Shown here in pieces: positions 14,726 to 39,690 of a DNA stretch of 64,000 nucleotides. The notes beneath the pieces were generated by a model that was given only the letters and a program-made list of their open reading frames with translations, made no database searches and was not told the DNA's origin. Within the stretch, counting starts at the first letter, position 1, and each line of letters begins with the position of its first letter. The translations under genes and the position numbers were made by a program. Location: assembly GCF_910592395.1 (NCBI RefSeq), contig NC_088320.1, positions 4,588,001 to 4,652,000 of the forward strand, in the 5' to 3' direction. The DNA comes from Lineus longissimus. Lineage: Eukaryota > Nemertea > Pilidiophora > Heteronemertea > Lineidae.

Positions 14726-17700
14726 ATGGCTGAGGAGGAAATTCTGTTTGAAGGTAAGTTTAATTATATTTCGCTTTGAGAGTAGCGTGTCTGGCCCCAG
14801 GGCTCACTAGATGATCCCTGTTCTTTACACACATGCCATACCTCCAATCTTTACAGCAAAACAGATACTTTAGGAAGGGAAAGCCTGCTTTGCTTGGCGT
14901 TTTCTGTAAATGAAAAATGGGTTTTCCCCACAACAGACGACACAGCCATTTCTCATAGAAAGGCATAGAAAATGAAAGCAATTGATTATTGGAAGAGTTT
15001 ATATTGCTTATCGTGTGCCTTGTAATATGTTGTTGGGCGATGAGAAACCTCGGGAGAAACCCAGATTACAGCGCCGGTGATATACAATGAGGCGGAAATC
15101 ATCCGGTGCGATTCCACCCGCGAGTTCCAGATCTTCCCAAACGCGCCGCTAGTGTGAATTACAGCTATCCCTAAAAGTCAGCGCTGAAGGTTATTAGGGC
15201 ATTGTCGCGGCCGTGTTTGAGCTGTAGTGTCATTTCGTTTCAAATATTCCAAAGCCTTTTAACAGTTGACAGAAATTAACAATTTCCAGATGATGTAACT
15301 TTTAAACTACATGTACATGTTAAGCGTGTATTGGTGACCATTTGACCAGAGATGATACACTCAATGACCTGCTTGGTTTGAATTCCCACATAGTTTGGGT
15401 GCACGGTACGATATGTACAAAATATCGTTTTTTCCAGGTCAAATGGCCGACGTCAACACAAAAGAAGACGGCCAGGAGACTAATAACGTAATGAAAGCTG
15501 CTGCCAATGACGGAGGAAATGTAGACGATGTTGGAGGTGACCAAGTGTTTGAACCTGTGACCAGTGATGGGCAGACGACAGAGGAAGAAACTCCTAGCAG
15601 ACAAGAAGTTAGCTCTGGTGACCTGGCCCCAGAGGACGAAGGGAGTATGGTCATAGTAGAAGAAGGAGAGATCCCAGAAAATGGTGCCATCAATGAGCAG
15701 ACGACAAGGGAAGGAATCAACCAAGAGACCGAACGTAGCGAAGAAAGTCATGATGAAGGATTTGAAGAGATAGCCACGGCAACTACTGAAGAGGGCAATC
15801 TAGCTGGTTCGAATGGAAATCTAGGAAAAGATGGAATTACTCCAGGAGCTGATGGTGGGGAGAGCCAGGAAGGAAGTGTTGTGAAGGTCAATGACGGAAC
15901 GGTTGAGCAGAGTGACGATTTTGGAAAGTCCATGGACACAAGCATGGAGATCATTGAGATGAATGAGGCCAAAGATGAGGATGAGGTCATTTCCTTGGAA
16001 ACCCTACCGACCTCTGACGACGCCAAGGTCAAAGACATCCAAACTCAGTTACAGGAAACGATTCTGCTCCTTCAGGTCATCAAGACTTTAGCCCTCGTTG
16101 GAAAATATTTACGCATCACTACAAACGCTACAGCAGACGATGCTAGCTTGCTCATCAACCAGCAGGGGTCGTTGTTCGAAACTTTAAAACTCTGCGACAC
16201 TTTGTCCCTCATGATGCAAAGTTTCCAAAGTGGCGCAAACAACATTTTAGAGAAGTTGAAGATAGCCTATCTGTATCTTCTGGATGGATTTCCTGATTTC
16301 GCTATGACGGACATTGCTGCAATTGCCAAGGATGTGGACACAATGAAGACAGCTGTTGGGAAGACGCAAAAGAAGGTCACAGAGATGAGGAAAAAGGTCA
16401 AAGAGATGAAATCCCAAGTTGAAAAAGCATTGGAAAAACGACAGTCGAAACTTGAGAGTGCGGAGAAGGAACTTGCAGAGCTAATGAGTGGAGGTAGTAG
16501 TGAAACAGATCCACAATCACCCAAAACAACCCAAATATGTGTTTTTGATAGATCAATTCAATGTGTTCTGCGAACAGCTGTTGCGGTTAGCGTGTTCGTT
16601 GGACTAGGCATAACACGAAAGCTACGACTCCTTGAAATATTACGATACATGACATCAATTAAAGTTGTTGTTTGGATCCTGCAAAAAGGAATTGACGTCG
16701 TGACAGTTTTCCCGAACTGTTCCCTTAGATCAAATTGTCTAGACGTCCTCAAATGGTTCAAAGAGGGAATTCCTGAAGAGGTACCGTCCAATGAATCTGT
16801 CACGCATGCAATACTTGGTGAGGATAACGCTTCTCTCAGGCAGAGATCAGTTGGGATGACGCAGAAGGTCACAGAGATGAGAAACAAGGTCCAAGAGGCA
16901 CCGAGCAACATTGAAGCTGGAGCCAAAATGTCACCAACCACTTCAAAGGCAGCTTTTGAGGTAGCCATGGAAATTTCCAGTCTTAAGGACGATATCCAGA
17001 AATATAAAGAAGTCGTCCACAGAGTGAAACTGGTCCTTACGATTATTGAACAGACGGACCCACTTTTAGACAGCGTTGAGAGCATTTTGCTGACATCCAC
17101 GGACCTGGTGCAGAAGTGGTACAAGGAATGTGCCGACATCGTTGAGCCGAGCATGGCTTTGACGGTGAAGGCAGCAGAGAAGCTTGGTGAGGAGGAGAAA
17201 ATGAAGTATTGGAAGTCGATACAGTTTCAGCAAGAGGTGGTCACGTACTATTGCAGGTGAGTGAAGTGCTGAAAAAAATCAGTCAAATCTACGTCAAAAT
17301 ATATTGATCATTAGCATTGTTGGCATTATTTTAATATGAAACAAGATTGTTCACTACTGTAATTGGGTAATGTCAGTCACGAGCTCATAACTAACGTGCA
17401 ATTGGGCTACATAAATATATACATAGGCTGCCATCATCTCGAAGATAACTGTTGGATTCAGATTTGTCATCACTACTTGTTATAAGAACTTTACGACTGC
17501 TCCGAGGGTGTCTCCAGTACAGGAGTATGGAAAGAAAGGCCACCCCATGTTACTAGAGGGCGTCGGTTTGCCTATCTTTCGCAGCCGACACTGACCCGTG
17601 TATTATCGCAGTGCCTGTACATCCATGGCTCTGTGGAATCTAATGGCCCCATAAGGTTTTTACGCCTGTCCTTTGCTTACAGATGGCGCGCCCTTCAGGT

Positions 17701-20752: not shown

Positions 20753-23700
20753 ATGGAGCTTCTTCGCATATGTTGCGGACGATTTCTTCACATATTCATG
20801 GTTCTGTTGGTGAGTATACTCTTTTATTACATGTTGTCGTCACGTATATTTCCCCCCGTATAAAGTCACAAAATTAATAAGGATGTTAAAACAGGAAGGT
20901 GGTCAAGTACCATTTTTGTGAAATTGAGTAACATACTAGATATCTCCTCCATGCAGTTCTGATGTGAAAACGATCAAGGCTGAAACTGCCAACTAGCCAA
21001 TACGTGAAGCATCGAACCTGACTGTCCTGATGTGCCTTCCATTACCAATTGCCTATAGCTAATATTGCGGTTTATGATCGTACTCCCAATATGGGTAAAT
21101 AGCAAATGGTCCTTGACGCGGGCGACTCGGTTTTTAATCACAAACGGTAACGATTTATGCTTTGAGACATAAAAGTTAACTTTCTGGATTTCAATCATCG
21201 TCGTTGTCATCAGATAACTAAGGCGCCACCAGTGTAGCCACGGTCGCCTTGCTGGTGACATTTTCGGTGGGTTGAGAGGGCAAGCCCGCCAGCCCACGCG
21301 TCCTTCTCAACAGCCTCATTAAATCACATAGATACGGCGTCTTCCTCGCTCAGGCTTCCACTCGAGAATCGCTCTTGAACTCTTAGAAATAAAGGTTTTT
21401 GAGCTACGGTTTATCGGTCAACACAAATATGCAACCCGCCGAGGTTATTCAGCCGGCGAAGTGAAAAAACCTTAGAGGCTTTTCACTCTCTCAAAATCAA
21501 TATGCGGTTTTTTTCCATTTGACCCAAAAACCTCTACGGGGACGGGGTGCATATTTGTGTTTGCCGAAAAACCTTTAATGATTTTTCCGAAGCTCAAAAA
21601 CCTTCAATTCTAAGAGTGTGGTTGTTCATTCCATACGACCGAGACATGTCCGTACCATCTCAGGCGCAGTTTCTTCAACAAGAGTCATTTTTATCATCGC
21701 ATGTTTTTACTACGAATTAGAATTACTGTGTAGACGCTATTTAGCAGGTGTTGGTGCGTCTGTTTCACATAGGTCCACTACACGTAAAATAGGCATTTTC
21801 TACAGGCGCCCGTCAACCGGCCAAACAGCGTCTACACAGTAAATATCTTACGAATGTTATGAAATTGATTATACGGGGTGAGAGTGAGGCCAGTCTCTGT
21901 TCTGTTCTCTCCTCAGTGTATAATGTGACCTCTCTCTTACCGTGGTGTTCGTGCCTTTTATGGAAAACACCAAGACGAGCACAAGTAGTTACTGAAGTGT
22001 GCAACCTTCTTCTAAATTCTTTTCTCCAGGCCTTATTGATTGTGAGCAGAAATGTGGGTAAGTCCATCAGCAGTTCTTCTCTTCTTCTGAAATTTCAATG
22101 AGACAAAAGCATAACTGCGTTAAGATATTCATTACAAATGTACATGTACTTTTAAACAGTCTAAGAGTGAATACGCTATTCACTTCATATTTCGCACGGA
22201 TCAAAATTGTTCATTACAAATTGCTCTTTTTCCAGTTGAAGTATCAGGGTTCGCATGCAGATCTTACACAATCCCCTATCAAGCGCCAGCCCGTCTTGTA
22301 CACAAGTACTCGTACAACGCCTCGTGGGTCTACGAGGTCATCTATGCCTGTCCGTCCGGCAACATACAACGGGCTACGCCTTACAGTCTCACTGGGAAGA
22401 TCACGTACTACTTGCAGTGGCACTGCACACTCGATAAAAAGAAGAGCCTTACGTGGTCGCCGAAAAATGGACGTTCTCAGATTTGTACCAGTAGGTATAC
22501 CGTCGTTTAATAAAAACATGACCCCCACCCATCAATTGTTTTAAATGACGCAGGGCGACACTGTAAACTACACACAACTTTTGCGCCTGAAAATTTCGGA
22601 AAAATCTTAAACTTTACTATTTTTGTCTTGGCGGGTAACGTAATTTCTTTCCATTTCTCTCGATAAAGAAGGAATACATTTTTTTCGCGAATCCAGATAA
22701 ACGAATTATGACATGTTCGTCATGAACTCCATATTGTGCACACAGTTTCGGGCGTTGGCTATGTTTGTCAATATAAAATATATTATTTATAGAAGTGCGA
22801 ATAGTTTCTTCTGTCAGACGGGAGACCCCCTATTGGCGACTTCGTGTAACGTAATTTGACCGACTTGGCTCCTAATCATAGGGTCTCATTAAAATTACAC
22901 GAAAATATAACAAGAAAAAACCCACATCCGGCAAATTCTGAAGGAAATTTAGTGATGATCAAGAGAACATCCTTTTAGTGCCAGTAAACATCGTAGTTAA
23001 TGTTGCCAGTTTAGATAGCAAGTCCTTGAAAATCCCAGTTGTTATCATCAACAAAACGCTGTTTCTTCAGAACACCCAGCGAGTTACGGCTGCTTTCGTG
23101 TCAGCAGTGCCACTCCGCTTTCTGGTCAATACGACTCGGACACATGTCGCTGGAAGTGCCTAAATGAGTCAAAACCCTACTCAGCGATAAGGGTAGGGAC
23201 GTGTGCGTGTCTCGACGAAGCACCGACGGTTAAGGCGATCAGTTGTAACCAACTTTGCAGCACTGTCACTTGGGAGACATGTGGAGGTGTTGGCCCCGTA
23301 TATTCTGTTTATTACACGTTCGGTAGGTTTTTTTCGTTTTTTGTGTAATCTTTAAGGGTGGAATCGGTCAGAGTGACCTTGCGGTCTTAAGAAGAGAAAA
23401 AACGAGATGCAAGAAAAAATCCTGCACATAATATGAATTTCAAACGAGAAACTCAATCGATATACATTGCACTTGTTGGTTTCAAAAAATTCTTCTCGAT
23501 CATCACGTGCAAACCTTGGTTCCATGATCTCAGGTTATGATTTTCTCATCCAAGTCGGCGTGTGCAGCGCGTCAAGACATGATTGTATAAAGTGCGACAA
23601 GGCGAGTTATATCTTTGCAATAAATGTATCAACCGTGACATTTGAAACTTACGTTTTCAACAGATGGATGCTACAAGTTTTCCTCTCCACCACCGAAGGA

Positions 23701-26700
23701 AACAGGGACAACCATGCCCATCATTCATCCTAAACCCTGCAAAGAATACTGTCGAGACAGAGGTAAACATCCAAGTTTTCAAATGGGGGATATACATGTA
23801 CTTCACATGCAATACCTTATGAAAACTCCCGTTTAATACTCCACAGGAGCTAACCCTGCAGTGCGGATACGTCACGTGCTATAAGAGCTACATTTGAGTC
23901 GGATAAGTAATTCTAATTTTGTGATAAAACGAAACATCAGCGTTTCAAGCAAAGGATTTCTTTTAGAAACCTGTACAATTTTGCCCCGTTTTCTCAAAGG
24001 TAAAACTCGCGGGTTTTAGAGTCAGTAATACTACATGCATAATCAAAATCTACGTCTTTATGAATACACGTACATGTACATGTATATTTCAGGTGCCGTA
24101 TATGCCGCAATACGATCCAAAAAATGTTACTGCCTTGGTGTAAATATGCTTTCGAACACGGAAGTGACACCAATGCATCGATGGGAGGGATGTGACATGA
24201 TATGCCCGGGGAATAATTTCTTTAGTTGCGGCTCTCGTTCGGAGAGTTCACCATATTTTGCCGTCGTCTCCACAGTCGGGACTGAGATCGAAGGTCAGTG
24301 TTGTGCTCTGAACTCATGCAATTCTTCTCTGGCTCCATCACGAATGTATAGCACTACCACAGATACATCCGTGGCTCCGCATTTGAGCGCCTGCGCTCAT
24401 TATCACCTGAAGCCCTATAATTATGATTGGCGAGCTTTGGGTAGTTCTTGTCAAAGCTGATATGCCAACTGATGGCTAAATTTGTAATTCTTACGAAAAT
24501 AGAAATTTTTCCCATGCAAATTGTTTTCATTGCAGGAGACACAGGTAGTGTGGGGGCATCCTGCTACGACCTCTTCAAAAATGGGGTCCATTTTAACAAC
24601 GACTACATCCTGCACCGAAAACCAGATGGACGGTCAACATTTTCAGGAGAGTTCAACAACTCCAGACATTCGTGTACAATGGCAGGTAATGTATGAGAGA
24701 CAGTGCACACTCTCCAAATCAGCAAATACTTGTGCTCTAGCTTCAACGATCCAAGACGGTTCTTAATATAAAGGTGAAACTAGAAACTATACATTTGAAG
24801 TTGCATCACTGTTCAAAGTACTAAGTTCCCCCACAGTTTCTGACTGTGCTTGCAAAGTTTTGTCAATTTTAATACCGAACTTCGAATTTTCATCATCGTC
24901 GGACTGATATCCGTGTTATTATCAATCAACGTTTCACATATTTTCCTAGATGGAACACGCTGTCAGGAAGGTTGGATAGGCTTCCAAGGGAATTGTTATT
25001 TATTGAACACCACGCTCTTGGATTATGCCAAGGCGATAGACAGCTGCTATGAAGTGAATGCAACTTTGGCGACCATCACAAACAAGGAACAACAACGTTT
25101 CCTTGGTGCTGCCATTCACCCGACATGTAAGTGAAAATACTAGCAAGTATGGACTAAATCTAAACTATACTAGTAAATGATAATAATTATGATAATCACA
25201 GTAATCAGAGCCGCTTCTATATAACTTTCTAAACTATACTAGTAAATGATAATAATTATGATAATAACAGTAATCAGAGCCGCTTCTATATAACTTTCTA
25301 AACTATACTAGTAAATGATAATAATTATGATAATAACGGTAATCAGAGCCGCTTCTATATAACTTTTTTAACTGGTCAGTGTCGGTCTCTACACATTTTG
25401 ACCGTCAGGTTTTGGACTCCACTACCCCGAACCGGACCTCGTTACACCAACACCGGGGAAGCTTTGAGCAGCTTGAGATCAGGCTTTTTTACGCCTACGT
25501 CATATACAAAATTTTGAAATATCGATAGGCGGAGTACATGTATATCGAAAACAACTGCTTGAACTGGTTATACCAGGATAGCTTTGAGTGGGGCTACATA
25601 CCGAGTACTTCTGGTAGTTGATAATAGTCTCTTCAAAGCCTTCATGTTATTTTATTAAAGGCCGGGACAACTTGGACAGGTTATTCGCCTCATCAGGAGG
25701 ATAATACCCCTACTTCCCACCATGCGCCGCCACCTGTGGTAGTACACTGATGCTGATTTTCAATAAATATATTCGCCAGTGTTGCGAGGCAGTTTTTGAC
25801 ATGACATATGAATTTTAGGCAGGCTTACGATACATCCCGTTCTAGTGCATTGTTTACTGGAGATCAGTGATTTTTCAACTATCCTTCCTAAAGATGTCGC
25901 GGCGTGGTTCTTCTGGAAGCCATTTTCGTATAAAAAAAACTCCGATGTATCTCATGCCGAAGTTGTCTCCTTACATGGAGGAGTAGTGAGAAATTTATAA
26001 GAACATTCTACGAACTGCTTTGGGGAATAACATTATCATTTTTCATCGTTTCAGATCGCTCGCTATACTCTTATAAATGGTGGATCGGTCTGAGTAAAAG
26101 AAGTACAGACTCACCCTTCTTGTGGCAAGACGGCACGCTCTTAAACTACCATAATTTTCACCATTCCTTCGCCAAAGGTTGGAAAACATTTAATCACAAC
26201 TGCGTCAGAGTTGATTCTGATGAGACGAGATGGGTTACAGAACCGTGTGCGCTTAAACTTAAGCATGTATGTCAGAAAGGAGACTGTAAGTATGAAAATC
26301 TCTGTAGTTTTAATCCAAGATCAAAGCCAAGACTCTGGTTTGACCAAGTGATTATTTGGTGTGAATGCGGGAAATTACTATACAAACACCATCGTGGCAG
26401 GAAAGTGAAACAGGCTATATAAAAGAGGTTATTCTGGGCCTTTTATTGAAGAAACTGGTATTGAGATTTTGAACAGGGGATGACATCACTTTATAAAAGT
26501 TCATCATCAGATCAGGAGTATCGGCCTGTGTGAACGCCAAAAAAACGATAATTCATTCATTACTAAAGATTCTGTTACTGGAGACCTAATCCATTACTCC
26601 TTAATAGCTCAACTTGAATTATACGAAAATACGTTATTTCCAACACCAAAAGTACACGGCGATCAGTTGGTCATTGCTTCTATACTGACGTCATTGTACT

Positions 26701-29700
26701 TGATTTCAGCATCTGCATATGTAGGATGCATTGAAGATAAACATGCCGAAATGACAGACGCTTACGTGGATGACAGAATGACTGTCAAAATCTGCATGCA
26801 AGACTGCAAGAAGCAAACGAAGCGCTATGCCCATGTGCAGAATAACACTTGCCGATGCCTTGATGTAATAGATAAAGGAAGGACCATGCCGAGTCCTGTC
26901 TGTAATATACTGTGTCCAGGATACTCCTATCAGAAATGTGGAGGGCCAGGTAGTCTGTACTCTGTCTACAGAAGTAAGTATGAAAAAGAAATATGCTCTG
27001 TTTAAGGGTCGACGATGTGCCCATTTCAAGGGTGGGAGTCTGTACTTCATTTTGAAGAAGTTCTCATTGCTTTAGGATTTCAAGCTCTAGCCAAAATGGT
27101 GGTGCCTATGGTCAACCCTTCATAATGAACATCTAGTTCCAGCGTTACCGGTCTAGTACCTTAAACTTAGATGCGGCTCATGATCTTTTCTTTCCCATTG
27201 TCCTGCGCAAGGAGGATGCCATCTTATATTCAATATCATACGAATAACAACCAATTTGTCATGTGCACTTTTGGCCACTGAACTTATCGAATCTCTCTTC
27301 AGCTTGGACATGGCAGCTTGGATTAAAAGTTACAGAGAATGACTACACAGGCAAAGACATTCCGACATTAGAAAAGAAAATGAAGATGAACTACGATATG
27401 TATTCCTTTGTGCACCCCATGTCACATAATCTTACTGTTGTTACACCACAGTCCAAGTATCTATCGATGAGGGTTACTGGGGTGAGTAGCAGCAATGTTG
27501 AAATGTATATTCAGTGCATATTTACATAATTAATAATACTAGATAATGATAATGTTTCACACTATAGCGCTTTCTCTTGCTAAAACACTTTTTGGGGTGA
27601 TTATCATCCCACTATCCACATAATCAATTCGGGGGTTTAAGGAACCGCATAATTTCAAATTGCTCATTTGAACTCGACCAGGCTTCGCGATTGATGATAG
27701 GCTTCTTGCTTTCATTGAATCCAACTAATGTCATTTCATTTTTTTACTTGTTTTACATTCTGCTCTCCCTCAAAGGCAAGAATAGAATTATTTGACAATG
27801 GAGGAAAGTCACTTTGGAATGCCACATTCGGCCCAGACAACATAATCTCAAACAATTTCATCCAGAAGGCTTATGGAAATGAAGAAATGAGTTCAATGAA
27901 GCAGAAAATACGAGACGAAGATACGACTATCATTTGGAAAACACGGTATGGTTTGAATTATCAAGAAATAAAACAACGATTTTGAAAATAAGGTTAGAGA
28001 GGGCTTGATGTGCTCGTGAAGGTGGGGGGGGGGGGGGGGGGGGGGGGGTCATTTCAGTGTCAAGTTGCTGTTTTTGCAATTCTCCTACTTCAGTTGTCTG
28101 CATTGATCATGATCACCATGATGCTCATTGTAGGTCGAATGTCTTGATAGGGAAAGGCACAGACACATCTTGTGACAACCGAGAGATTTACTTGGAGGTA
28201 TTTGGATCAGGTGATAAATGCGTGACTGGAAAAGGAAGGAAGATCCTGTATGCTCCAGGGAATTCAACAACAAAAGTCAAAGGTAACAATATCATTTCAG
28301 ATTTACACCATACATGTATGAACTACTTCTGAATTGATATGTTGAGGTTACCTTTACTACAGATAAAATGACTACAAATTACAATTGCAGATGCATCAAA
28401 GGCCGCGGCCATGGCAGTCTGGCTTCAAATTGACATTGGTGGATTTTTTGAGAGTTGTAACGAGGTCTATCTGAACGAAATGCCATCCGGTGAATATTTA
28501 CTGGTCAACAGGGCACGCAAACTCTCAGGAATACAAAAGTGTTCATTTGATGGTAGGTATATGTGTTTATTTTTTAAATTTTGAACAATTTGAAGATTTT
28601 TCACACATAGATATATCTAATTTTCGTTCTGCTTGAAAACGGCCAGGAAACACAGGAAGAAGTGTAGCAGTTCATGAAACTGACCTCTGTTGCAGCGGGG
28701 TAGATAGAGAATCTCCTACAACAATTATGAGACAGCTGATATAATAACATTTTTATGTCCATACACCTGTACAATGCAAAACCTTGTTTAAATTAACTTC
28801 TTCCTTTTCAAGTGCACAAGCCGTGTCCACACCACTGGTTTTTCTCCCAGGGATCTTGCTACTTCTTCAATCCATCAGATTACCGTCGGCAAGATGGCTT
28901 TTATTACTGCTTTGCAAGAAACAGCACAGCCATGACATTCCGAAACATAGGAGAACTAACGGATCTACGCAGTATAGGTAACTTTACTCTATTCACGCAG
29001 GTGTTATGGTTGATGTGGGGAGACAAACTTACAGAAAGGTGATGGGGAGCAGTCCTTATATGTTATCTGAGTAATTTTGCAGCACATAAGTAAACACACT
29101 GGATTTATACTCATATTTTAAAGGGTACCTATAGGCTGGAGCCGGGTAGGTCAGACTAAGTTACACAAAGTCGCCATGCCAATAGGGGTCTCTCCCACCT
29201 GGCAGTGAAATGAAACTACTCACACGTTTCCACGACGACGCAGTCTTCTAACTGTACATATTCACCACATGAAGATGACGAAATTGATCCCCGGCATCTT
29301 GCCTGTTTCAACACGACCTCTAAACTTAAAACTTTGTCCTTTAAAACATTTAGGGGCAAGCGTGCCATGGTTACTGAGAGAACCATTTCGTCATTATGCC
29401 ACTGGGTTGCAGAGTAATCCACACACAAAGGTTTTCTGGTGGGCCGACGGAACCAAATCTAATGTTACAGAGAAAGACTACTGGACAAGAGGAATCACTA
29501 AAAACTACTGGTATTTCACCAAGATGCTGGAAAAACCCATTCCCAAAAAAAAGGCATCTCGGTACGCAGGAGTCGTTTGCAAACAAAACTTCGGTAAGTA
29601 TACACAAGAGAATAGGACATAAACCAAAAAAATATGTGTACATGCATGCTGGTAAAAGAATAAGAACAACCATTCCTCATAAAAATAGTAACCTAAATAA

Positions 29701-32700
29701 ACTCCCAACATTTTCTACATTCAATAGGTTACCGTGGCTGCTTGGATCTCGGCCTTCCAAACGCAAAGTGGCCCAAGTTCACAGATTCGTTTGATATCCA
29801 CATAAGAATGTGCCTCGCTTTCTGCAAAGGTCAGCAATCAAAGTTTGCAGCACTCCGGTTGACATCCTGTTACTGCATCCCTGAAGGAATTGTTGACGCT
29901 GCTCCGACAATGAATCCAGTGAGGTTTTGTAGAAATCAATGTGCTGGAGCATCATTTCAATTTTGTGGAGCACCATATCCTGAAAACAATACCTACAGTG
30001 TGCACAACGTTGGTAAGTTGGTAAGGTAATCATTTGGCTTACAGACCGTCCTCAAGTTAACCTATCTTTAGATGTCATTTTAGACATCCCATGTGCAACT
30101 CCCACTCTACCCTCGGCTTTGGTTCCAGACGAACTCGGCCATAGCATGTCTCTTGTTGCCCAAAACCAGAACATTCAATTCAAAGAACCACTGTTGATCT
30201 GATTTATATGCATTTGTGGCTGCTAATGAGAGCTTGCCGTCTTGAACACTACCATCACCAGAGCCTTCGGTACTTTAAAACCTTTTATAGGCTTCTTCAT
30301 GATATGTCAATATCTCTCATTCACTTAGGACAGACCTCGCTGACTGACCACTTTCAGAATATACTAAATGAGGGCAGAAGTAGTTGATACATTTCTTCTT
30401 TGTTTTACTTTTAGACGGATATAATTTAGATGCAACCGCATGTGAAGATTTAGCCGACCAAGGCATCAGACAACATGGCAGGTACAATATCAGTGGAGAG
30501 ATTAAACAATGCTACTTTAGGGGTAAGCAGACTTGGCAACATCTGAAAAAATATTACTCTGTCAGGACAGGGACTATATTTGGGTAACATTTAAATAAAT
30601 AGTACTTTGTCAAGACAGCTGATAAATTACCACATGTATTAGGTCGAAACAAAGGAAGCTGGAATATGATGTCATGACCATTGGGAAGTTGGTGTCGCTA
30701 TCTTTATGTCTATTAATTGAACATGCTGAATGGCAAAGAATGATCCTGTGCATGAATACTGAGCTTGAATTGAATATTCAGAACCGTTCGGTGAAACCCG
30801 AGTATAATATGCTTTTACTTTCAGATAACTCAACTGCCTGCCCAGAGGGTTACCTGGCGCACAAACTATCTTGCTATCAGATTTGGAGGTTTACTGAAGA
30901 ACCGATGCCGAAGAAACATAATGCCGATAAAAACTGCAAGGGAATAGGCGGCTATTTAGCGGCAGCTGTGGCTGACGACCAAATTGAGTTTATCAAAAGT
31001 TACGCAACTGGTAAGAAAAATATTCTCTTGTGTCATCTTCAATGAGCATGATTGGCCAGGTATTGGGTACTCAAAGTAAACGGGTACAATTAAAATCCGC
31101 ACAGTGTAGCAGCTATAATTGTACCACCTTATTTTACATACTTTACAGTAACGTGGTGCTTAAGGGCGAGGAACATAATACACCCCAGATTTCGTTTTGG
31201 ATATAGGACATTTTTGTAGTTGAATGAAAGTCCAACAATCGTTTCTGTTATTGCTGCCACTGATGTGAACCCCTGCATATTGTTACTAAATTGTATTTCT
31301 TGAATTGATCCTTACTTATATAATGAATAGAAATAGATAACCATTTATGTCTTTGTTTTCTGTTTCAGCCTTCAGGTCGATAGACCATCTTACATACTAT
31401 CATCTGGGAGCCACAAGAGATTCTGACTTCCCTGGAAGTTTGCCTTTCCTAAGAGCTTGGGCCACGGGAGTCCTAAATCGCTTTGATTCACCCTGTAACT
31501 CAGATCTTCGTACAAAAGCCCCGGTAGACCTAGCGATTTTCAAATTTGCGCCACAAGGAAACTTTACCTGTCAACCAATTCTTGCATTCTATTGGGAGGA
31601 CAAGGGTGCGAAAGCATATATTTGTGAAAAACCACCATGTGAGCAAAATCTAAGTCTCCGCCTCTATTTTTTATCTGCAGTATATCTCACCATAAGGAAA
31701 TAACATGATTTCTCCTGATCTCGCCTATATTAGCCTCCCATAAACCAAATACTCGCATATAACGGTCAGTCCCGGCCAGCCTTGTTAAATTTCCAATAAG
31801 ATTCCTTGCATCTGATTTACTCCAAATATCGGACAATTACAACTACATGAATTAATAAAAAGAAGTTGTAGATCTCAAGACAATAAAAAAATCATAAGCT
31901 CGCCTTAATATATATTTTGCCAGTATGACTGTATATCATTAAAAGAATTAAGAGTCTCTTTTCAACAAATACCGTTTTATCACTTGATGTTTTCAATGAC
32001 AACAGCTGGTTAATGAGCGTGCATCCCTGATTCAATCCCTTGTTATTTCCAGACTTAAAATGCTACCTAGACTCCTCCCTAGAAACGGCAGGCGTGAACA
32101 GTCAAAAGGCTACATTGGAGCTTGCAGACTACCGCGAGATGAGCCTTACTCTCTGCATTCAAGTGTGTAAGGGAAAGAATGCCACCATTGCCCTGCTCAA
32201 AGGGAAAACATGCAAGTGCCTCAAAGCAGATGCCCCCATAGTGAGAGAGTCACTGTCGAATAGAAAAGCTCAAGACCAGCCAATGCTATGTGACACGAAA
32301 TGTGCAGGGATAGCCTCCCAAAGCTGTGGGGGGAGTGCTGCTGCTACCTTCATTGACCTTGGTAAGTGCTCCTACACATTTCTGGCAACAGCTATAACAA
32401 TTTTAAGAACAAAAAACACCTGTACAAAACAACCAGCATAGTTCACCAATAAGCCTACTTCTGGCACAACTGACTTTGGAATATCCATCACTTATTGACA
32501 CTGCTCCCTTTCTCTGGCTTCCTACAACCTTTAGAGCTTAAGGACCAAACTGGGGATATTGGTTGTTTTACCCAACACAGCAAAGTTGGAGCCAAGATGC
32601 AGCTGGAAATAAGCAGAGTTATCTATTTCAGAATATATTCGAGATGACGTCTGGGCCAATAACTGCCTCGATCTGTACATGAACAATGTCCATTATAAGA

Positions 32701-35700
32701 GCACGTATCTGGTGGGAGGAAAATACATCACGTGCGGCTTTTCAGGTAATTTGTGCTCCAACTTCCAAAACAAGAGGGTACAAATGCTGACCTGGCAAAA
32801 AGAACAAAACTCCTTTTGCTCTGATAATACTTGCAGTGCCTGCAAAATCCTCTGGCATTTGGGAAGTGAAGCTACTATGGACCAGCATCCGATTCACAAA
32901 GTTCAGTTGTCCTTAAGACAATGCTAGTTCCTTGGATTCTGCAGCTGTGGCCTGGTGAGCGGAAATTTGGTAGATTTTCCCTGCAAAACAGCAGGGCACA
33001 CTCTTTTTCTCGTAGATGCACTGCCGGGCCTTCCATCAATTGACCTTGGTAGTTCCCGCAATATGGGAATGTTTGACTCAACTGACTAGACTTTTATATC
33101 AAAGAGATCATTCTGCAATCACTTTTCAGATGAGACCGAGTGCTCACAGGGCTGGTATGGATACAAGAAAAGTTGCTACAGCTTTGATTGGAAACGTGCT
33201 TATTCTGAAAGAATGGACCTCAAAGCCGTTGTAGAACACTGCAGGGCACAAGATGCATACGTGTTTTCTCCATCAGATTTGGCGGAATACAAAACAGCTG
33301 CTGGATTGATAGACGGCATGAAACATCTGGGAACACAAATGGAACTTAGCTCCAAAACATCCGACGGACGTGATCTCATATCGTACAGGGTAGGCTTAGA
33401 ACAGAAAACGCACATCAAATTAGCAGGTAAAAACCAAGGGTCAACATCACCGTATGTTGCAGCTGATGGGGGATTCGTTGATGTGGATATTGGGATGGCC
33501 AAGCCGTTTTTATGTCGACTTGGGAAGTGTAGTTCGGGAACACTTAGCGCTACCGATGTTAGCAAGACCTGGCATGCAATCTGTGAGAAACGGGTCCAGG
33601 GTAAGTGATTTTACCATCAGAGAAGCGGCTCTTCAATCTTTTATTTCTATTGGAAGGCTAAGAACTACGCTAATAAAGAACGCAATTGTTGCATAACAAG
33701 AAAAGCATGTCAATATAGAAAGAAGTCGTACATTTCTTCCATTTTGCCAAGTAATTTTATTTTCTGTTGCAGGTATTAGATACCTTGGTTGCTATGCCGC
33801 ACCCAGTGACAAACCCATCCACACTGCATCAGACATGTCTGTCACAATGTGCATTAACCTCTGTCGAGTAGAGGGTGCGGCCATGTTGGCTGGGACCATG
33901 GAGAACGCTTGCTACTGTCTAACATCACCAACTGTAAAACAGACATACGCGGGCTGTGCAATGTCTTGTCCTGGCTACAAGCTCCAAACATGCGGGATGG
34001 CAGCAAAGGCACTAGTGTCTCTGTATAACTTAAGTAAGTGATCGCCTACGTCAAAAACAGACGCAATTGAGCCGAACATCCACTCTATATCCCTTATTGG
34101 CCAAAAACGATTTCACCTCACAGTGTAGAAACTCTCTCCTTCCTCGTGGATCCTGAATTGCAGAATCAACCCAGCTAGAAACTACACAGTATCGACACTT
34201 GCTACTTAACTTAAAGGAGCTTGGGCTTCAAATTCGTAATCATTAAGTGATTAATTCATGTAATTATTGAAGATGCTTTAGAAGAGCTTACATGTTACTT
34301 GCTTGGACCTGAACAGTTGCCAGATTGCAGAGAAATATTCCATATTGTTTCAGGTAATTACGAAGCACCCGAGACCTGTTTAGAACTCCTGAGTGCAGGA
34401 GTGACCACAGCACGGTCAGAGCCATTCGTCGTGCAGGTTGGCGGAGAACTAAAGACTGTGTCATGCAACACTGAAAACGGTACGCTGTTTCAAGGAGCAA
34501 GAAGAAATATGTCGGATGTAGGATGTCGATGAAGACACTGCATCTTTGAATTGCAGATGTTATCACACTATAACAGAGCATTTTCATTGTCAGTCAGATG
34601 CTCTGGTGCAATTCGAAAAGTGTTTGATTTTACAGCTCAAGTTGTATGGTTGATGTCATTGTGCTTATAAATAAACAGTCTGCTCGAGATCACTTCTTAA
34701 GATAGCTGGCATGACAATTCAAAAGTGGCTTTCCCCTTTAATTTGACTCGATCTTATTTTCTGTTCATGTAGATACCAATTTCCGTCCATTACTCAGCAA
34801 AGGAGCAGTAAAGGTAACCACTGGAACATTGACAGGAGTTACCAGCAGTTTATTGTGAGTACAAAAGTACCATTTCTTTACATCACTCATCCCTTGGTAG
34901 TGTGTTCCCCAGCTAATCTTTTTACATTGCTCATCCCTATGTACCTTGCAGTGTGTTCCCCAGTTAATCTTTTTACATTGCTCATCCCTATGTTCCTTGT
35001 AGTGTGTTCCCCAGTTAATTTTTTTACATTGCTCATCCCTATGTACCTTTTAGTGTGTTCCCCAGTTAATTTCTTTACATTGCTCATCCCTATGTACCTT
35101 GCAGTGTATTTCTGGGTTAATTTTTTTACATTGCTCATCCCTTTGCAGTGTGTTTCTGCGTATCATTTTGCATTGATCGTCCCCTTTTACACTTACTGTC
35201 ATCTAACAATGATTCATGCTCTCTTGCAAGATTCAACTCGGTGGGAATAGCCAGGCTAACACCAGCCCTGTCCACAAAGTCTGTCACTCTGGATGCTTCA
35301 TTTATGGAACCTATGGCTGTCCTTGGTTTGAAAATAAAAGGTGAGACGATGGCTTCAAACAACACATAACAACAGGTGATAAAATGTTTATCAAGGAAAA
35401 GAATTCTGATAGAATTTCTTGGCCAGTCTGTTTATACTATACCTTGCAAGCAAGAAGTCTTCATGCCGATCCACCGTCGTTGTGCGTATATCCAGAAAAG
35501 GAGGAGACTTTAGGACTGATATTCACCGCCGATAAGTCAGCATGGTAGTCTTTGTCGTTACCTCAGTCGCTGAACCTACCAGATGGGAACTTTTGATGCT
35601 TTAGGAGATTACCTCCTAATCGGAAGGTTTAGGAGTTTGGTATTATTTCCTAACTGGGAGGTTCATGAGAGATTGCTGTATTCATATTACACCATTTCAG

Positions 35701-37590
35701 GTCTTGCCATAAACTCATCTGCGGCAATAACCATACAACAAATGGTTGCATCAGTTTCATCAGATTGGACAGGGGACCAAGAAATCCCGGTTAGTACATT
35801 TTGGTATAAACAAACTAGACATTATTAGCAAAGATTTTAACAGAAATGTAAAGAGGGAACCCGGAAAAGTTTGTGTGCCTTTTATTTTCATGTTTTTTGT
35901 GTTTCATGGTTTTGGTTCCCCTCTCGTGTTGCTGATAGATGAATTGCTTTGGAAGTTAAGAGACCTGGTGTCACCAAAAAATGAAAAAGGCATTATCCCT
36001 TCAAGAGATATTAGATACACGTTGGTATCTGCATGAATCATTACCAAAGTTATCGCTTCTTTTTTTATATATTTCAGAGCATCATCCCATACCAAAGTCC
36101 TGATGGGATAGTGGCAATCCTAGTCAGTGAGCCTATTGCGACAACGGATGTCAGACTCACCATCCAAATGGAGGAGCAATCTATAGAGGACTTCGAGTTG
36201 GAACTTTTGGGGGAGCCACTCATAAATTTTACAGAAGGTAAACTTAGGATTTGTGCTTACCAGCAGGGAGGCAGGGTTAGTGGCAGAGTGGTCAGGCTCA
36301 TAAACGGGAGGTTGTTGGATCAAAATTACAATTACTAAGCCAGTTTGAGGTTACAACATTTTGCGGATGACCATAGTTACACAAAACACTCATCCCACCT
36401 TGGATTGAAACTAGAAAATTATCCATTCCCCTAACAGTGCATATCAGTTATCCAACAACCACCAATTGGACCCTCCCCCTCCAGCTGCTACCTCAAGTCC
36501 CCTTTAAGGCCTATTAACAAATATAACATGGCAAACTGAAAATTCAATGCGATATTAAATTTCAGCTATTGCCAGTCCATTTCGTGGATGTTTCCAATAC
36601 AAGGAGCCTCTACTGGAGATGAAGGATGAGGAGAAAGTAGTCACAAGTGTCATTGAATGTATTCAGCACTGTGTGGCGAATAATCATCCTTACGCTGCAG
36701 TAAGAACAGGTAAGACCAGTTCCCTCCTCTGTAAGTTTCATGCGCTGAAGTTCTGTCAAGGCTGAAATGTTGATACAATGCTAGCAGCATCAGTGATCTG
36801 CGAAGGTTTTTTTTTGGCATTTATGATTGGAAGTCACACTTTTCGATCAGTTGTATGCTTGTAACAATATCTCAAGTCCCACTTTCCATTTTCAGGAGAC
36901 CTGTGCTCATGTGGCTGGGAATTTAATGCCTTTGGAAAACTGATGAATCAGACATGCTCAGTTTGCGAGACCAACATGACCAGCCCATTCTGTAACCAAA
37001 CAGGAATCATGGCAGTCTATCTGACTGTACAAGAGCTGAAGCTAGAGAATCGGACCACCTCCACAACAGAAAGCAGTACCTCTGAGACGACTAATACAAC
37101 TAGCGAGACTAATAGTACAGCTAGTGTCACTACTAATACAACTAGTGTCACTCCTAATACAGGTAGTGTCACTACTAGTACAGGTAGTGACACTACTAGT
37201 ACAGATGGTGTCACTTCTAGTGCAGGTAGTGACACTAATAGTACAGCTAGTGTCACTACTAGTACAGCTGGTGTCACTTCTAGTGCAGCTAGTGATACTA
37301 CTAGTACAGCTGGTGTCACTTCTAGTGCAGCTAGTGACACTACCAGTACAGCTAGTGTCACTTCTAGTGCAGGTAGTGACACTAATAGTACAGCTAGTGT
37401 CACTTCTAGTACAGCTGGTGTCAATTCTAGTGCAGCTAGTGTCACTACTAGTACAACCACTACAGACAGCAGTACCAATACCACTGTTGAAGATGAGAGT
37501 TCGAGTGATACTGATGGTAAGTGTTCAAGCTTTCAGACTTATTTGTGCAATAGAAGGGCAAGCTTTCAGACTTATTTGTGCAAATACTGA
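20753..37590 (+). CDS. Multidomain WSC / C-type lectin protein, secreted or cell-surface (31 exons)
   Basis: Exons: 20753-20809, 22030-22057, 22236-22490, 23071-23322, 23664-23762, 24093-24293, 24536-24685, 24950-25126, 26055-26285, 26710-26973, 27303-27481, 27776-27945, 28134-28282, 28391-28552, 28813-28977, 29354-29593, 29728-30012, 30415-30522, 30825-31010, 31369-31638, 32053-32361, 32632-32745, 33130-33600, 33773-34033, 34354-34479, 34773-34854, 35231-35340, 35701-35789, 36078-36237, 36566-36709, 36896-37516. Exons 1-2 give a signal peptide. The order is CCP, WSC1, WSC2, two-Cys1, CTLD1, WSC3, insert, two-Cys2, CTLD2, WSC4, two-Cys3, CTLD3, WSC5, two-Cys4, CTLD4, WSC6, two-Cys5, insert, WSC7, Ser/Thr-rich tail. 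Every frame joins, giving ~2,038 codons to 37516. The C terminus is unresolved: reading through the last donor reaches TGA at 37588-37590, and I found no convincing transmembrane exon downstream. WSC and CTLD modules generally bind carbohydrate, so extracellular glycan recognition is likely but inferred. The combination recalls polycystin-1, which has one WSC and one CTLD, but REJ, PKD-repeat and channel parts are absent. Confidence 0.85.
21379..21617. mobile_element. MITE-like element in intron 1
   Basis: The ends 'actcttagaa' and 'ttctaagagt' are inverted. Inside them, 'aaggtttttgagct' and 'acacaaatatgca' recur in inverted order, giving arms of about 60 bp around a short centre. The element is 239 bp, has no coding capacity and lies between exons 1 and 2 of the lectin gene. 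Confidence 0.7.
21723..21843. mobile_element. Short MITE-like element in intron 1
   Basis: The terminal inverted repeats 'ttactgtgtagacgct' and 'agcgtctacacagtaa' bound about 120 bp. The element sits in the same intron as the larger fold-back element and has no coding capacity. No clear target duplication was seen. Confidence 0.65.
22236..22490 (+). other. Sushi/CCP-like domain exon of the lectin gene
   Basis: One phase 1-1 exon encodes about 85 residues with four cysteines (FACRS, YACPSG, WHCTL, SQICT) and the terminal W(S)PKNGRSQIC pattern typical of complement-control (sushi) modules, where C1-C3 and C2-C4 are disulfide-bonded. It is the first module after the signal peptide. The exon end at 22490 was preferred over 22494 because only it keeps the frame into WSC1. 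Confidence 0.65.
22813..22882 (-). repeat. Dispersed repeat, copy 1 (inverted)
   Basis: The reverse complement of this 70-bp intronic segment matches 29128-29205 throughout, including 'ttacac(g/a)aagtcgcc' and 'aatagggg'. A weaker relative appears near 51,125-51,180. It is a short dispersed element of unknown class. Confidence 0.65.
23071..24293 (+). other. WSC domains 1 and 2 (tandem)
   Basis: WSC1 is a single exon (23071-23322). WSC2 is split over two exons (23664-23762, 24093-24293) by a phase-1 intron placed shortly after its third cysteine. Each carries the full eight-cysteine WSC pattern: the opening GCF or GCY, then CxxxC or CxxC, CxC, CxxxC, and a late C(G). In WSC1 the late part reads ETCGGVGPVYSVY. 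WSC domains occur in yeast cell-wall sensors, kremen and polycystin-1 and are thought to bind glycans. Confidence 0.85.
24536..26285 (+). other. Two-Cys module 1 plus CTLD1
   Basis: The exon at 24536-24685 encodes a ~50-aa module with a Cys pair (ASCYDLFKNGV ... HSCTM). Exons 24950-25126 and 26055-26285 encode a long-form C-type lectin-like domain: six cysteines (RCQEGW, GNCYLL, DSCYE, HNCVRV, EPCALK, HVCQK) and the WWIGL core. The calcium/sugar triplets EPN or QPD and the WND motif are absent. Classical mannose- or galactose-type Ca-dependent binding is therefore not expected. Confidence 0.85.
25161..25366. repeat. Three-copy 69-bp tandem repeat
   Basis: Units starting 'taaactatactagtaaatga' begin at 25161, 25230 and 25299, giving exact 69-bp spacing with only one or two substitutions between copies. 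The array lies in the intron that splits CTLD1. The unit ends 'gccgcttctatataactt'. It is a recent minisatellite with no spacer structure. Confidence 0.9.
26710..28282 (+). other. WSC3 and first beta-rich insert
   Basis: WSC3 (26710-26973) has all eight cysteines in one exon (YVGCIED, ICMQDC, TCRC, VCNILC, KCGG). Exons 27303-27481, 27776-27945 and 28134-28282 encode about 165 residues with only two cysteines that match no module I recognise; their alternating hydrophobic pattern suggests beta strands. Intron phases inside the insert are 0 and 2, but it enters and leaves in phase 1, so it too is a shufflable unit. Confidence 0.75.
28024..28048 (+). repeat. 25-nt G homopolymer in an intron
   Basis: An uninterrupted run of 25 G lies about 85 bp upstream of the exon at 28134. 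Such a run can form G-quadruplexes and is error-prone in sequencing and replication, so its true length is uncertain. Confidence 0.9.
28391..29593 (+). other. Two-Cys module 2 plus degenerate CTLD2
   Basis: The module exon 28391-28552 contains SCNEVYLNEMPSGEYLL ... KCSFD. CTLD2 (28813-28977, 29354-29593) keeps the opening CPHHW, SCYFF and YYCFA and the final VVCK, plus an FWWADG core. It has lost the internal C2-C3 cysteine pair present in CTLD1, 3 and 4. The domain probably folds through the outer disulfide only, and its ligand site is likely altered. Confidence 0.8.
29128..29205 (+). repeat. Dispersed repeat, copy 2
   Basis: This matches the reverse complement of 22813-22882 across its whole length with small indels. 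It lies in the intron that splits CTLD2. Two copies in opposite orientation in different introns of one gene point to independent insertions rather than exon-block duplication. Confidence 0.65.
29728..31638 (+). other. WSC4, two-Cys module 3, CTLD3
   Basis: WSC4 (29728-30012) has the full eight cysteines. The module (30415-30522) is the shortest copy (TACEDLADQGI ... YNISGEIKQCYF). CTLD3 (30825-31010, 31369-31638) has six cysteines (ACPEGY, SCYQI, NCKGI, SPCNS, FTCQP, YICEK) and a HLGATR core in place of WIGL. It is split by a phase-1 intron at the same place as CTLD1 and CTLD2. Confidence 0.85.
32053..33600 (+). other. WSC5, two-Cys module 4, CTLD4
   Basis: WSC5 (32053-32361) has eight cysteines with a longer spacer between CxC and CxxxC. 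The module (32632-32745) reads NNCLDLYMNNV ... YITCGFS. CTLD4 (33130-33600) is encoded by one 471-bp exon, so it lacks the intron that splits CTLD1-3. It has six cysteines (ECSQGW, SCYSF, EHCRA, FLCRL, GKCSS, AICEK) and no EPN, QPD or WND motif. Confidence 0.85.
33773..36237 (+). other. WSC6, two-Cys module 5, second beta-rich insert
   Basis: WSC6 (33773-34033) has YLGCYAA, CINLC, CYC, CAMSC and TCGM, eight cysteines in all. The module exon 34354-34479 has ETCLELLSAGV ... VSCNTEN. Instead of a CTLD, four exons follow (34773-34854, 35231-35340, 35701-35789, 36078-36237). They encode about 147 cysteine-free residues with an alternating hydrophobic, beta-sandwich-like pattern that I cannot assign to a family. 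Confidence 0.75.
34879..35150. repeat. 51-bp minisatellite, about five to six copies
   Basis: 'acattgctcatccc' recurs at 34924, 34975, 35027, about 35078 and 35128, a period of ~51 bp, with 'gtgtgttccccag' in each unit. The array lies in the intron between exons 34773-34854 and 35231-35340 of the lectin gene. Because 51 is a multiple of three, long frames stay open through it on both strands, but they are not in phase with the upstream exon. Confidence 0.85.
36566..37516 (+). other. WSC7 and Ser/Thr-rich mucin-like tail
   Basis: WSC7 is split (36566-36709, 36896 onward) by an intron just before its CxC, a different position from the WSC2 intron. All eight cysteines are present (RGCFQY, ECIQHC, LCSC, TCSVC, FCNQT). 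The same last exon continues into about 150 residues of Thr/Ser/Ala/Gly-rich repeat with several N-x-S/T sites. Dense O-glycosylation is expected, as in a stalk that lifts the lectin modules off a surface. Confidence 0.85.
37087..37470 (+). repeat. Coding 21/42-bp repeat (Ser/Thr-rich heptads)
   Basis: The translation is a run of heptads of the form T-[TSN]-S-[TA]-[AG]-[SG]-[VD], about 17 copies. They pair into 14-residue higher-order units (for example TTSTAGVTSSAASD, residues in order). At DNA level 'actagtacagctggtgtcac' and variants recur every 21 or 42 bp. Copy number is probably polymorphic. Confidence 0.85.
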
Positions 37591-39690
37591 GACTACTAGT
37601 ACATACAGTGAGACTACTACTTTTGGCGAAACCACTTCGGTCATCAGTACCACTCATTCAAAGGCCTCAAAGGAGAAAGACCCTTTAATTGGCTGATGAA
37701 ACTTCAGTGACCAGAATAGCTCGTTACCGGTACATATTGTGAAGGTGGGCCAATTTTCCATTCTTGTGAACTCAAACATAAAGATCTTGGGTAAGACAAT
37801 TTGAAAAGGTTTGCAACATCTGGATTTGACGAGCAGACTATACACCTGAATGAAGTCATCCCCAAGGTAAGCTGGATGAATGTGATGATTGTGGCTGTAT
37901 TCTCTGGATGTGGCCACACTCAAATGAAGACAACCTTCAGGTCAGCTGGATGATTGAATGTGGTGAATGTAGTTGTATTCTCTGAATGTTGCACAGTGAT
38001 AGTGATAGTGACTGTGTGTTTGTAAGGTATGGCCTAGGCCAGTATCTTTGCTGTTACCTTGCAAAATTGAAAGATTAGATTTTAGCAGTGATCCTGTTGC
38101 CCGAGACCACTCGGTTTCTGAGTAGTGATAGGGAAACCAGATATTTTTCCCTTTAAAAATTACATTGGAGGACTACTGGTAAAGAAGGATGACCAGCTCC
38201 ACTTGGCAGGTTGCCCGATTGACTGTTAGATCCAAAGCCGCAAAATCAACAACTAAATTGGTTATTTACATGCCAAAAATAAAAAGCAAAAAGCAACAAG
38301 CAACATAAATTAACAAAGCTTTTTATCATGATCTCAGCATTTACTCAATATACAAAATGTACTTTAAGAGTACGAATACATTGCATATCTTTGTCAAAAT
38401 AGGATTTGACACAAGCTCAATAAAACAACAGAATCAATAGGACAAAGCTTGTCCCTGCTATTGTTTCTGTATTGACAACTTGAAAGTTAGGAATAGAACA
38501 CAATAGAAGGGCTAGCTTTTCCCCACTTTACCTTGCATAATAAATATAAGCTTTCAAAATCAAGAAAAGAACAGAAATATGTGGGTTTTTTCATGCAGGA
38601 TGGGAGGGGCTGACAACTAGATATTGCAAATTGCCACCCCTCCCAATACGAGAAGTAATATCATACCTTCGTTGAGAATCCTTGAATAAGGGACTCTTTC
38701 AATAGGCTCATACACACCACACATCCGGACAGTCCTCGGTTGTCACACTTTACAACCATACAGAAGCTGGCGAGGTCATTTTCTGTTACATATTCGGGCT
38801 GTTTAGTGCATACTACCACACTTCCCACCATTATCTATGGTAGGCACCATCACAATGATTTTATTCCATATTTTGCATGTTGCTACACATCAGTCTATTT
38901 TTGGTGGACAAAGACTTTCCGGCAAAAATATAATAGGGTTACGATGCCGGGAATGATGATGATGATGATGATGATCTCATGTTTTACAACAAAAGGTATG
39001 TCAAGCAGCTGTCCAGGATGACCTTCACTGTGATAATTTTCTTTCGCTCAGACCAGTAAGGCATCTGAATTGTAATTCTACATTTCATTTTTTGCTGAGA
39101 CACCAATTGTTCCACTATAGACAGCTGTAGAGCCCCCAGGATAACAAGAGGCCCAAGGGCACGGCGCTCAGCTGTGTTCAAACCATGTACTAGTATAATG
39201 GACAAACAGTCTTTCAAGGTGACACCAGAACGTACACTAGCACTAGCAAATGTTTGTAGTCCACCATACATTAGTTCATACAGCCGTTGAATCTAAACTA
39301 AATGTAGATTGTCTCATGTTGCACGTGTCTAAAGTAGGATACCTGCAGCACTGTAGCATCCTCACATTACCACCCCAAGAGTGTTCATGTTATTATGCAA
39401 TAAGTTCTTTGTCTCTTTGTAAAGTTCACTGAAATAAAAACAAGGTACTAGAAATAAGTCATCGAATTGATAGTTAAAGGGGTTCGCCATTTGCATTTTT
39501 GGAGGCTCAGGAAAATAGAGATTCCGTTATACACAATGCTGGAGTGCAGTGATTATGCATGAAAATTTGTAAACCTCATAGCATGCTGCTATCAAACAAG
39601 GTATATATATTTTAGTGTGGAGTATTATGGCCAGTTTACTGGCTTCCAATAAGGTGGATCAAGTGACCTAGTGACGTAATCAGCAAATGG
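37591..39690. other. Convergent intergenic region, 3' ends of the lectin gene and NCAPG2
   Basis: A 22-bp duplication ('agctttcagacttatttgtg', then 'ca') spans the unresolved lectin C terminus at about 37530-37583. AATAAA motifs on the plus strand at 38278 and 38419 could end the lectin transcript. A (GAT)n microsatellite lies near 38,953-38,975. No further gene is recognised. Confidence 0.45.

Follow-up and report, generated by a model that had tools for sequence, protein, structure and literature searches.

Does a long run of exons on contig 13 of the 391-Mb, 30-contig genome of Lineus longissimus encode one large protein, and if so, of what kind? The window, i.e. the whole stretch of DNA that we analysed, spans 64,000 nucleotides (positions 4,588,001 to 4,652,000 of NC_088320.1, forward strand), and all coordinates below refer to it unless a contig is named. 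An earlier note, made from the letters of the window, had proposed a cassette-built protein of WSC, two-Cys and C-type-lectin modules in an architecture that it did not recognise. The gene model, the splice-site and phase tests and the Pfam result support one large extracellular protein, built from cassettes and not recognisable as a polycystin-1. Our preferred reading, to which we give a probability of about one half, is that the protein is secreted, was assembled by phase-1 shuffling and serves recognition or adhesion through multivalent WSC modules that act by avidity.

Gene model and order of the modules

The gene model consists of 31 exons on the forward strand (20753-37516), which join without an internal stop into 2,038 residues; all introns are of the GT-AG type. 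Both the exon number and the length of about 2,040 residues claimed before are thus reproduced. Splice sites were picked manually with the frame maintained, and the previously proposed exon count was known beforehand. Within 30 nt of each site, the model uses the local best GT at 30 of 30 donors and the local best AG at 28 of 30 acceptors, as scored with matrices that had been trained on the remaining sites of the model. Of the two acceptors that were not the local best, that of WSC1 was moved to 23071, which stays in frame and adds three residues (2,035 to 2,038); that of the F2 module was retained although an alternative at 28363 scores slightly better (8.4 versus 7.4). Tandem repeats are present in introns of the model, with 69-bp units at 25159-25373 and 51-bp units at 34899-35142.

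Exons have a higher G+C content than introns (45.8% versus 38.8%). A codon model was trained on the WSC exons (minus the last), CTLD1 and one unconfirmed neighbouring frame, then applied to the 18 other exons; as a control, we counted how many of 500 stop-free intron segments equalled or beat the score of the exon. None did so for 11 of the 18, including exon 3, each N1 exon and the last N2 exon. The outcome was modest for F1 (11/500), F3 (28/500), N2a (48/500), N2b (28/500) and N2c (41/500), and weak for the first exon of CTLD2, CTLD2a (99/500). No stop-free intron segment is as long as the CTLD4 exon, hence this exon has no control. As a gene model, the reading of 2,038 residues is real.

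Phase 1 occurs at 19 of the 20 boundaries between named parts, the exception lying inside the signal peptide, after exon 1. As phase-1 symmetry is the usual mark of exon shuffling, the module boundaries point to shuffling as the way in which the gene was built. The N-terminal stretch is the sole hydrophobic, signal-peptide-like one in the model, and beyond it no transmembrane-like stretch was found in the modelled protein; the protein is predicted to be secreted.

Table 1. Parts of the multi-WSC gene and identified neighbouring genes, in window coordinates.
Feature	Position	Strand	Basis
Exon 1: start codon, beginning of signal peptide	20753..20809	+	Hydrophobic core of joined exons
Exon 2: remainder of signal peptide	22030..22057	+	Gene model
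Exon 3: four-Cys CCP-like module	22236..22490	+	Cys spacing only; codon test 0/500
WSC1	23071..23322	+	Pfam WSC, splice-site test
WSC2, two exons (23664-23762, 24093-24293)	23664..24293	+	Pfam WSC
F1, two-Cys, fibrinogen-related N-terminus-like	24536..24685	+	0/400 shuffles, model and fold match, codon test 11/500
CTLD1, two exons (24950-25126, 26055-26285)	24950..26285	+	Pfam Lectin_C, PDB CTLD matches
WSC3	26710..26973	+	Pfam WSC
N1, 166 aa, three exons (27303-27481, 27776-27945, 28134-28282)	27303..28282	+	Codon test 0/500 each
F2, two-Cys	28391..28552	+	Fibrinogen similarity unsupported: 43/400 shuffles as good
CTLD2, two exons (28813-28977, 29354-29593), four Cys	28813..29593	+	First exon codon test 99/500
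WSC4	29728..30012	+	Pfam WSC
F3, two-Cys	30415..30522	+	0/400 shuffles; codon test 28/500
CTLD3, two exons (30825-31010, 31369-31638)	30825..31638	+	Weak assignment
WSC5	32053..32361	+	Pfam WSC
F4, two-Cys, related to F1	32632..32745	+	Fibrinogen similarity unsupported: 210/400 shuffles
CTLD4, single exon	33130..33600	+	Weak assignment
WSC6	33773..34033	+	Pfam WSC
F5, two-Cys	34354..34479	+	2/400 shuffles
N2, 147 aa, four exons (34773-34854, 35231-35340, 35701-35789, 36078-36237)	34773..36237	+	Gene model, codon test
WSC7 (36566-36709 and start of 36896-37516), then Ser/Thr-rich mucin-like tail	36566..37516	+	Pfam WSC, 21-bp tandem repeat
Condensin II subunit	46476-46904	-	Pfam
Thiamin pyrophosphokinase	58261-58770	-	Pfam
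ORC2	62401-62748	+	Pfam

The N-terminal half reads signal peptide; four-Cys CCP-like exon; WSC1; WSC2-F1-CTLD1; WSC3-N1-F2-CTLD2. It is followed by WSC4-F3-CTLD3; WSC5-F4-CTLD4; WSC6-F5-N2; WSC7; and the Ser/Thr tail. The strict order described by the earlier note was overstated, as it did not contain N1 and N2 (seven exons), two stretches that match no known module: the third WSC unit carries N1 as an additional stretch, and in the sixth the cysteine-free N2 replaces the CTLD. What had been called a CCP is a weak assignment: exon 3 has four cysteines with CCP-like spacing, and a search of it against Pfam and PDB returned no sushi match. The final WSC and the mucin-like tail are both present in the model. 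This last part of the gene holds a tandem repeat of 21 bp; a short stretch is found again right after the donor at 37517, and a Ser/Thr-rich reading resumes off-frame to about 37696 (37517-37700).

Several identities were tried for the parts and rejected. As discoidin (F5/8-type) domains, N1 and N2 looked plausible by eye but scored on a six-sequence profile no better than 197 and 11 of 400 shuffles, respectively, with HHalign P values of 0.17 and 0.07; the idea of mutual copies was dropped as well (P 0.16), and N1 found no credible match in PDB. Matches to amine oxidase, artemis, tau, antibody and Dps were at chance level. Duplication of WSC and CTLD as a unit found no support, the trees of the seven WSC and of the four CTLD containing no supported fork.

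Identity of the WSC, lectin-like and two-Cys modules

The WSC domain is mostly known from fungi, in addition to single copies in PKD1 and Kremen. Here, the presence of seven is confirmed by Pfam: PF01822 is matched four times within the first 1,018 residues (E 1.2e-29, 102.8 bits) and three times in the other 1,017 (E 1.2e-19, 70.8 bits), above the curated cut-off of 27.8. Each copy has eight cysteines, which bears out the count of 56, and their spacing is nearly fixed; in WSC7, that of Cys 6-7-8 is shifted by one. The copies share 24-34% identity with WSC1. In five of the seven aligned copies a Tyr or Phe stands at most four residues ahead of the first Cys (WSC2 and WSC5 were aligned only from two residues before it), and three copies have a Tyr between the fourth and the fifth Cys. 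Aromatic clusters 1 and 2 of Wsc1 are possible counterparts of these residues. Outside the gene, the best matches in a search of the window for further WSC or CTLD exons had E values of only 0.21 and 2.3.

Yeast Wsc1 has a PAN/Apple fold with four disulfides, and its relatives comprise a fungal beta-glucan-binding WSC lectin and the WSC of human Kremen (PMC9024836, in part). PAN domains mediate contacts with both proteins and carbohydrates, and the fungal SiWsc3 is a beta-glucan lectin (PMC9024836; also PMC9252488; both in part). As indicated by human Krm1, an animal WSC may sit in a protein-binding receptor (PMC9024836).

The four C-type-lectin-like modules are recognisable to very different degrees. 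CTLD1 matches Pfam Lectin_C (E 2e-14) and the C-type-lectin-like family UL45 (E 1.8e-7), and through its region the first 568 residues match multi-CTLD chains of PDB with E values down to 2.6e-39; at the level of sequence, its assignment is certain. CTLD2 is related to CTLD1 (phmmer E about 4e-7 among 21 modules) and in Pfam matches UL45 alone, at E 0.027. CTLD4 reaches UL45 at E 0.12, and PLA2R and CD69 in PDB at E 0.13-0.85, ranked under tau chains (0.039); CTLD3 has neither a Pfam match nor a CTLD match in PDB. Part of the long-form cysteine frame is common to all four: the C0-x10-C0' pair, C1 at 33-38, and a final Cys close to the terminus. Six cysteines are present in CTLD1, CTLD3 and CTLD4 and four in CTLD2, where those of C2 and C3 are absent. 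Pairwise HHalign comparisons gave P values of 5e-6 (CTLD1-2), 0.0002 (1-4), 0.0066 (1-3), 0.0075 (3-4), 0.013 (2-4) and 0.064 (2-3), and an AlphaFold model of CTLD4 alone was uninformative (pLDDT 41.6). The count of four CTLDs claimed earlier therefore stands clearly for CTLD1 and more weakly for CTLD2; CTLD3 and CTLD4 have no significant match and are weak assignments, suggested by cysteine spacing, position in the unit and HHalign values. As EPN, QPD and WND motifs are absent from all four, canonical Ca2+-dependent sugar binding is not expected of them.

The recurring small two-Cys module, here called F, is present in five copies of 36-54 residues, and it now has a probable identity. We scored each copy with a profile of the N-termini of fibrinogen-related domains (FReD) against 400 shuffles in which the cysteines were fixed. 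The score was reached by 0 of 400 shuffles for F1 and F3, 2 for F5, 43 for F2 and 210 for F4. In the reverse test, seven FReD pieces gave 0, 0, 1, 4, 16, 18 and 68 of 400; on the same profile, the control WSC3 scored 3.4 bits, close to F1 (4.1) and F5 (4.4). A predicted model of F1 gave a low-Z and uniform fold match, 18 of the 18 entries listed being fibrinogen-like domains. The matched segment of this domain is N-terminal by position in tachylectin 5A; for the other entries, the residue numbers suggest the same.

Pfam detected no fibrinogen in the F modules and no Fibrinogen_C in the protein, and none of the modules amounts to a complete FReD of about 200 residues. When a profile of the F modules was searched against PDB, the top match was a designed repeat protein (whole-chain E 0.00068, with no single stretch significant), another being a D7 salivary protein (E 0.081); since fibrinogen is missing among these matches, the search lends no support to the fibrinogen reading. 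Among the ten pairs of F modules compared by HHalign, F1-F4 is the only clear one (P 0.0002), followed by F3-F4 (0.014) and the others (0.046-0.25). Altogether, the two-Cys module is probably a truncated N-terminal piece of a fibrinogen-related domain, a proposal with support from sequence in three of the five copies and from the predicted model of F1.

Genomic surroundings and possible roles

No second copy of the gene was found among the best-scoring candidates in its own 391-Mb genome. When the two halves of the protein, stripped of signal peptide and tail, were compared with the genome, 15 and 14 of the best candidates fell in the gene's own exons; the remaining 5 and 1 were weak matches to CTLD or WSC, at 26-39% identity. 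PF01822 has at least 11 matches in the genome: four in this gene (out of its seven WSC) and seven on two other contigs. Farther along contig 13, at 13816559-13843241 on the forward strand, roughly nine intron-split WSC copies occur in a row. A local WSC profile yields nine N-terminal and seven C-terminal half matches there (E up to 0.97), and no CTLD match was found in the region; from its sequence, it could be another multi-WSC gene or cluster. The region encloses a frame that by eye resembles reverse transcriptase (13821516-13822784). Elsewhere, on contig 2 (16.937 Mb), an F-like piece near a CTLD adjoins a sub-cut-off match to LDL-receptor class A.

Around the gene, the window contains a 630-residue open frame (15368-17257, forward strand), acidic by eye, with Pfam matches that are all sub-threshold, several of them to coiled-coil-like families. 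Five other minus-strand frames, at 40.8-48.5 kb, match no Pfam family. A search for protein homologues returned none from 3,168 candidates at E 1e-3 and none from 367 at E 1, in a collection that may contain few animal proteins.

According to the preferred reading, phase-1 exon shuffling would have built an extracellular protein of about 2,040 residues, with a signal peptide and many disulfides: a chain of WSC, short two-Cys and CTLD-like units with the two unassigned N stretches, ending in WSC7 and the Ser/Thr tail. Seven PAN-fold WSC modules would contact surface glycans or glycoproteins weakly but at several points, hence avidity, and the CTLDs and F pieces would serve as protein-contact or spacing modules. 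The tail would lengthen the chain or tether the protein in mucus or matrix. As the CTLDs do not have the canonical sugar motif, glycan binding, if any, is more likely to reside in the WSC modules; we infer such binding, together with a role in mucosal adhesion or immune recognition.

How the gene ends bears on another reading, a receptor anchored via a transmembrane or GPI exon 3' of the mucin tail, which we consider somewhat unlikely. The end at 37590 given in the earlier note has to be withdrawn, as it reads through the consensus donor at 37517; this donor implies that more coding sequence follows. In-phase reading would be possible for a hydrophobic frame at 37570, whose mean hydropathy is 1.88, and two others, at 37796 and 37856, reach 1.53. 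However, the acceptor of the first is poor (pyrimidine fraction 0.33) and the frame itself is presumably off-frame Ser/Thr-rich DNA; the other two come with AAG acceptors. A scan to 40.2 kb revealed no convincing downstream transmembrane exon.

We also find it unlikely that the product is a structural protein of matrix or mucus without specific recognition, that is, a cross-linked chain whose mucin tail hydrates a gel, a shell matrix or an egg coat. This would suit the tail and the many N-glycosylation sequons, CTLDs devoid of a sugar motif, and F pieces deprived of the remaining fibrinogen domain, and presumably of its ligand site. An insect foam protein is predicted to contain WSC and to be similar to shell matrix proteins, with low structural scores (PMC12911473, in part). 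Yet repeats as divergent as these WSC copies would seem less usual in a repeat protein of purely structural function, and beyond this one report no literature was found that ties the WSC domain to a shell matrix protein.

That the model fuses two or more adjacent genes, perhaps across a long intron, is improbable. The model does contain introns of 928 and 1,220 nt, the frame guided the choice of its splice sites and its 3' end may lie beyond the donor at 37517; on the other hand, nearly all sites are the best local ones, phase 1 is common to all module boundaries, and a single signal-peptide-like stretch precedes one set of modules that runs from start to end.

A single open frame on contig 1 (L029:4741-5433, near 29.064 Mb) combines a WSC match (E 1.2e-10) with a PKD match of 21.2 bits, under the cut-off of 23.5. 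Judged by these matches it is probably a polycystin-1-like gene, so that such a gene probably exists separately from the multi-WSC one. A gene or fragment of the polycystin-1 / REJ family at our locus is hardly credible, in spite of the WSC and CTLD combined in fish PKD1 (PMC5318412, in part) and the WSC present in SpREJ6, 7 and 10 and in human PKD1 (PMC1934368, in part): apart from that separate frame, the model terminates in a Ser/Thr tail, the next identified gene downstream (the condensin II subunit) is on the opposite strand, and, as had been noted before for the PKD, REJ and channel parts, Pfam finds no PKD, REJ, PLAT, GPS or channel family in the modelled protein at E up to 10, a range in which HMMER filters drop most matches above 0.1.

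The secreted recognition or adhesion protein that we favour may have relatives. We tentatively envisage a distinct, undescribed class of multi-WSC recognition proteins of animals in which glycans are read by WSC instead of the CTLDs, these have degenerated into spacers, and the fibrinogen-start exon has turned into an independent mobile module; the WSC-rich region of contig 13 (about 13.816-13.843 Mb) would be a member.

Relation to known protein families

Several CTLDs of the PLA2 receptor, DEC-205 and mannose receptor match CTLD1, and summed whole-chain scores put them at the top of the PDB list. This family is not known to contain WSC. In our protein, by contrast, WSC and F modules stand between the CTLDs, and Pfam finds no FN2 or ricin-type domain. 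In FReD proteins (ficolins, tachylectin 5A, angiopoietins, tenascins), the F1 model matches an apparently N-terminal segment of the fibrinogen-like domain; unlike in these proteins, the remainder of the domain is missing from the short F modules.

Kremen (Krm1/2) is a kringle-WSC-CUB receptor with a single WSC. Its domain is likewise an animal WSC, with a PAN fold and four disulfides (PMC9024836, in part), a pairing that for our modules is presumed from their eight cysteines. Fish PKD1, too, joins WSC and CTLD in one protein, with one copy of each, together with LRR, PKD repeats, REJ, PLAT and a channel (PMC5318412); by Pfam, none of the latter was found here. A coral REJ protein has a WSC (PMC4890752, in part), and 36 WSC (8.96%) are associated with SRCR proteins of sea urchin (PMC10855680, in part).

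A parallel also comes from bivalves. WSC, and separately sushi, are listed among the domains of bivalve-unique, mainly uncharacterised CTLD protein architectures (CTLDcps of categories B and C; PMC10140915, in part). The text compared does not state that WSC and sushi occur in one protein, gives neither copy numbers nor order, and makes no mention of modules such as F, N1 and N2. By this comparison of text, an equal architecture could exist among the bivalve proteins. In the literature searched, mostly outside subscription journals, we found no description of the exact domain order and no paper joining "WSC domains" with "CTLD"; a word search of a cnidarian CTLD survey (PMC8260672) did not return WSC. 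The earlier claim of an unrecognised architecture is therefore weakened: the exact order has not been found described, and the pairing of WSC with CTLD is on record (PMC10140915).

The gene is probably an example of phase-1 exon shuffling, by which WSC modules, CTLD-like modules and what are probably truncated fibrinogen pieces were joined into a large repeat protein. It hints at an expansion of the WSC domain into arrays in some animals; should such arrays bind glycans, they would constitute a scaffold for recognition distinct from the usual lectin and FREP families. Altogether, the gene is unusual in the copy number and the mix of its modules, yet these are mostly known, and the WSC-CTLD pairing has already been recorded in other animals.
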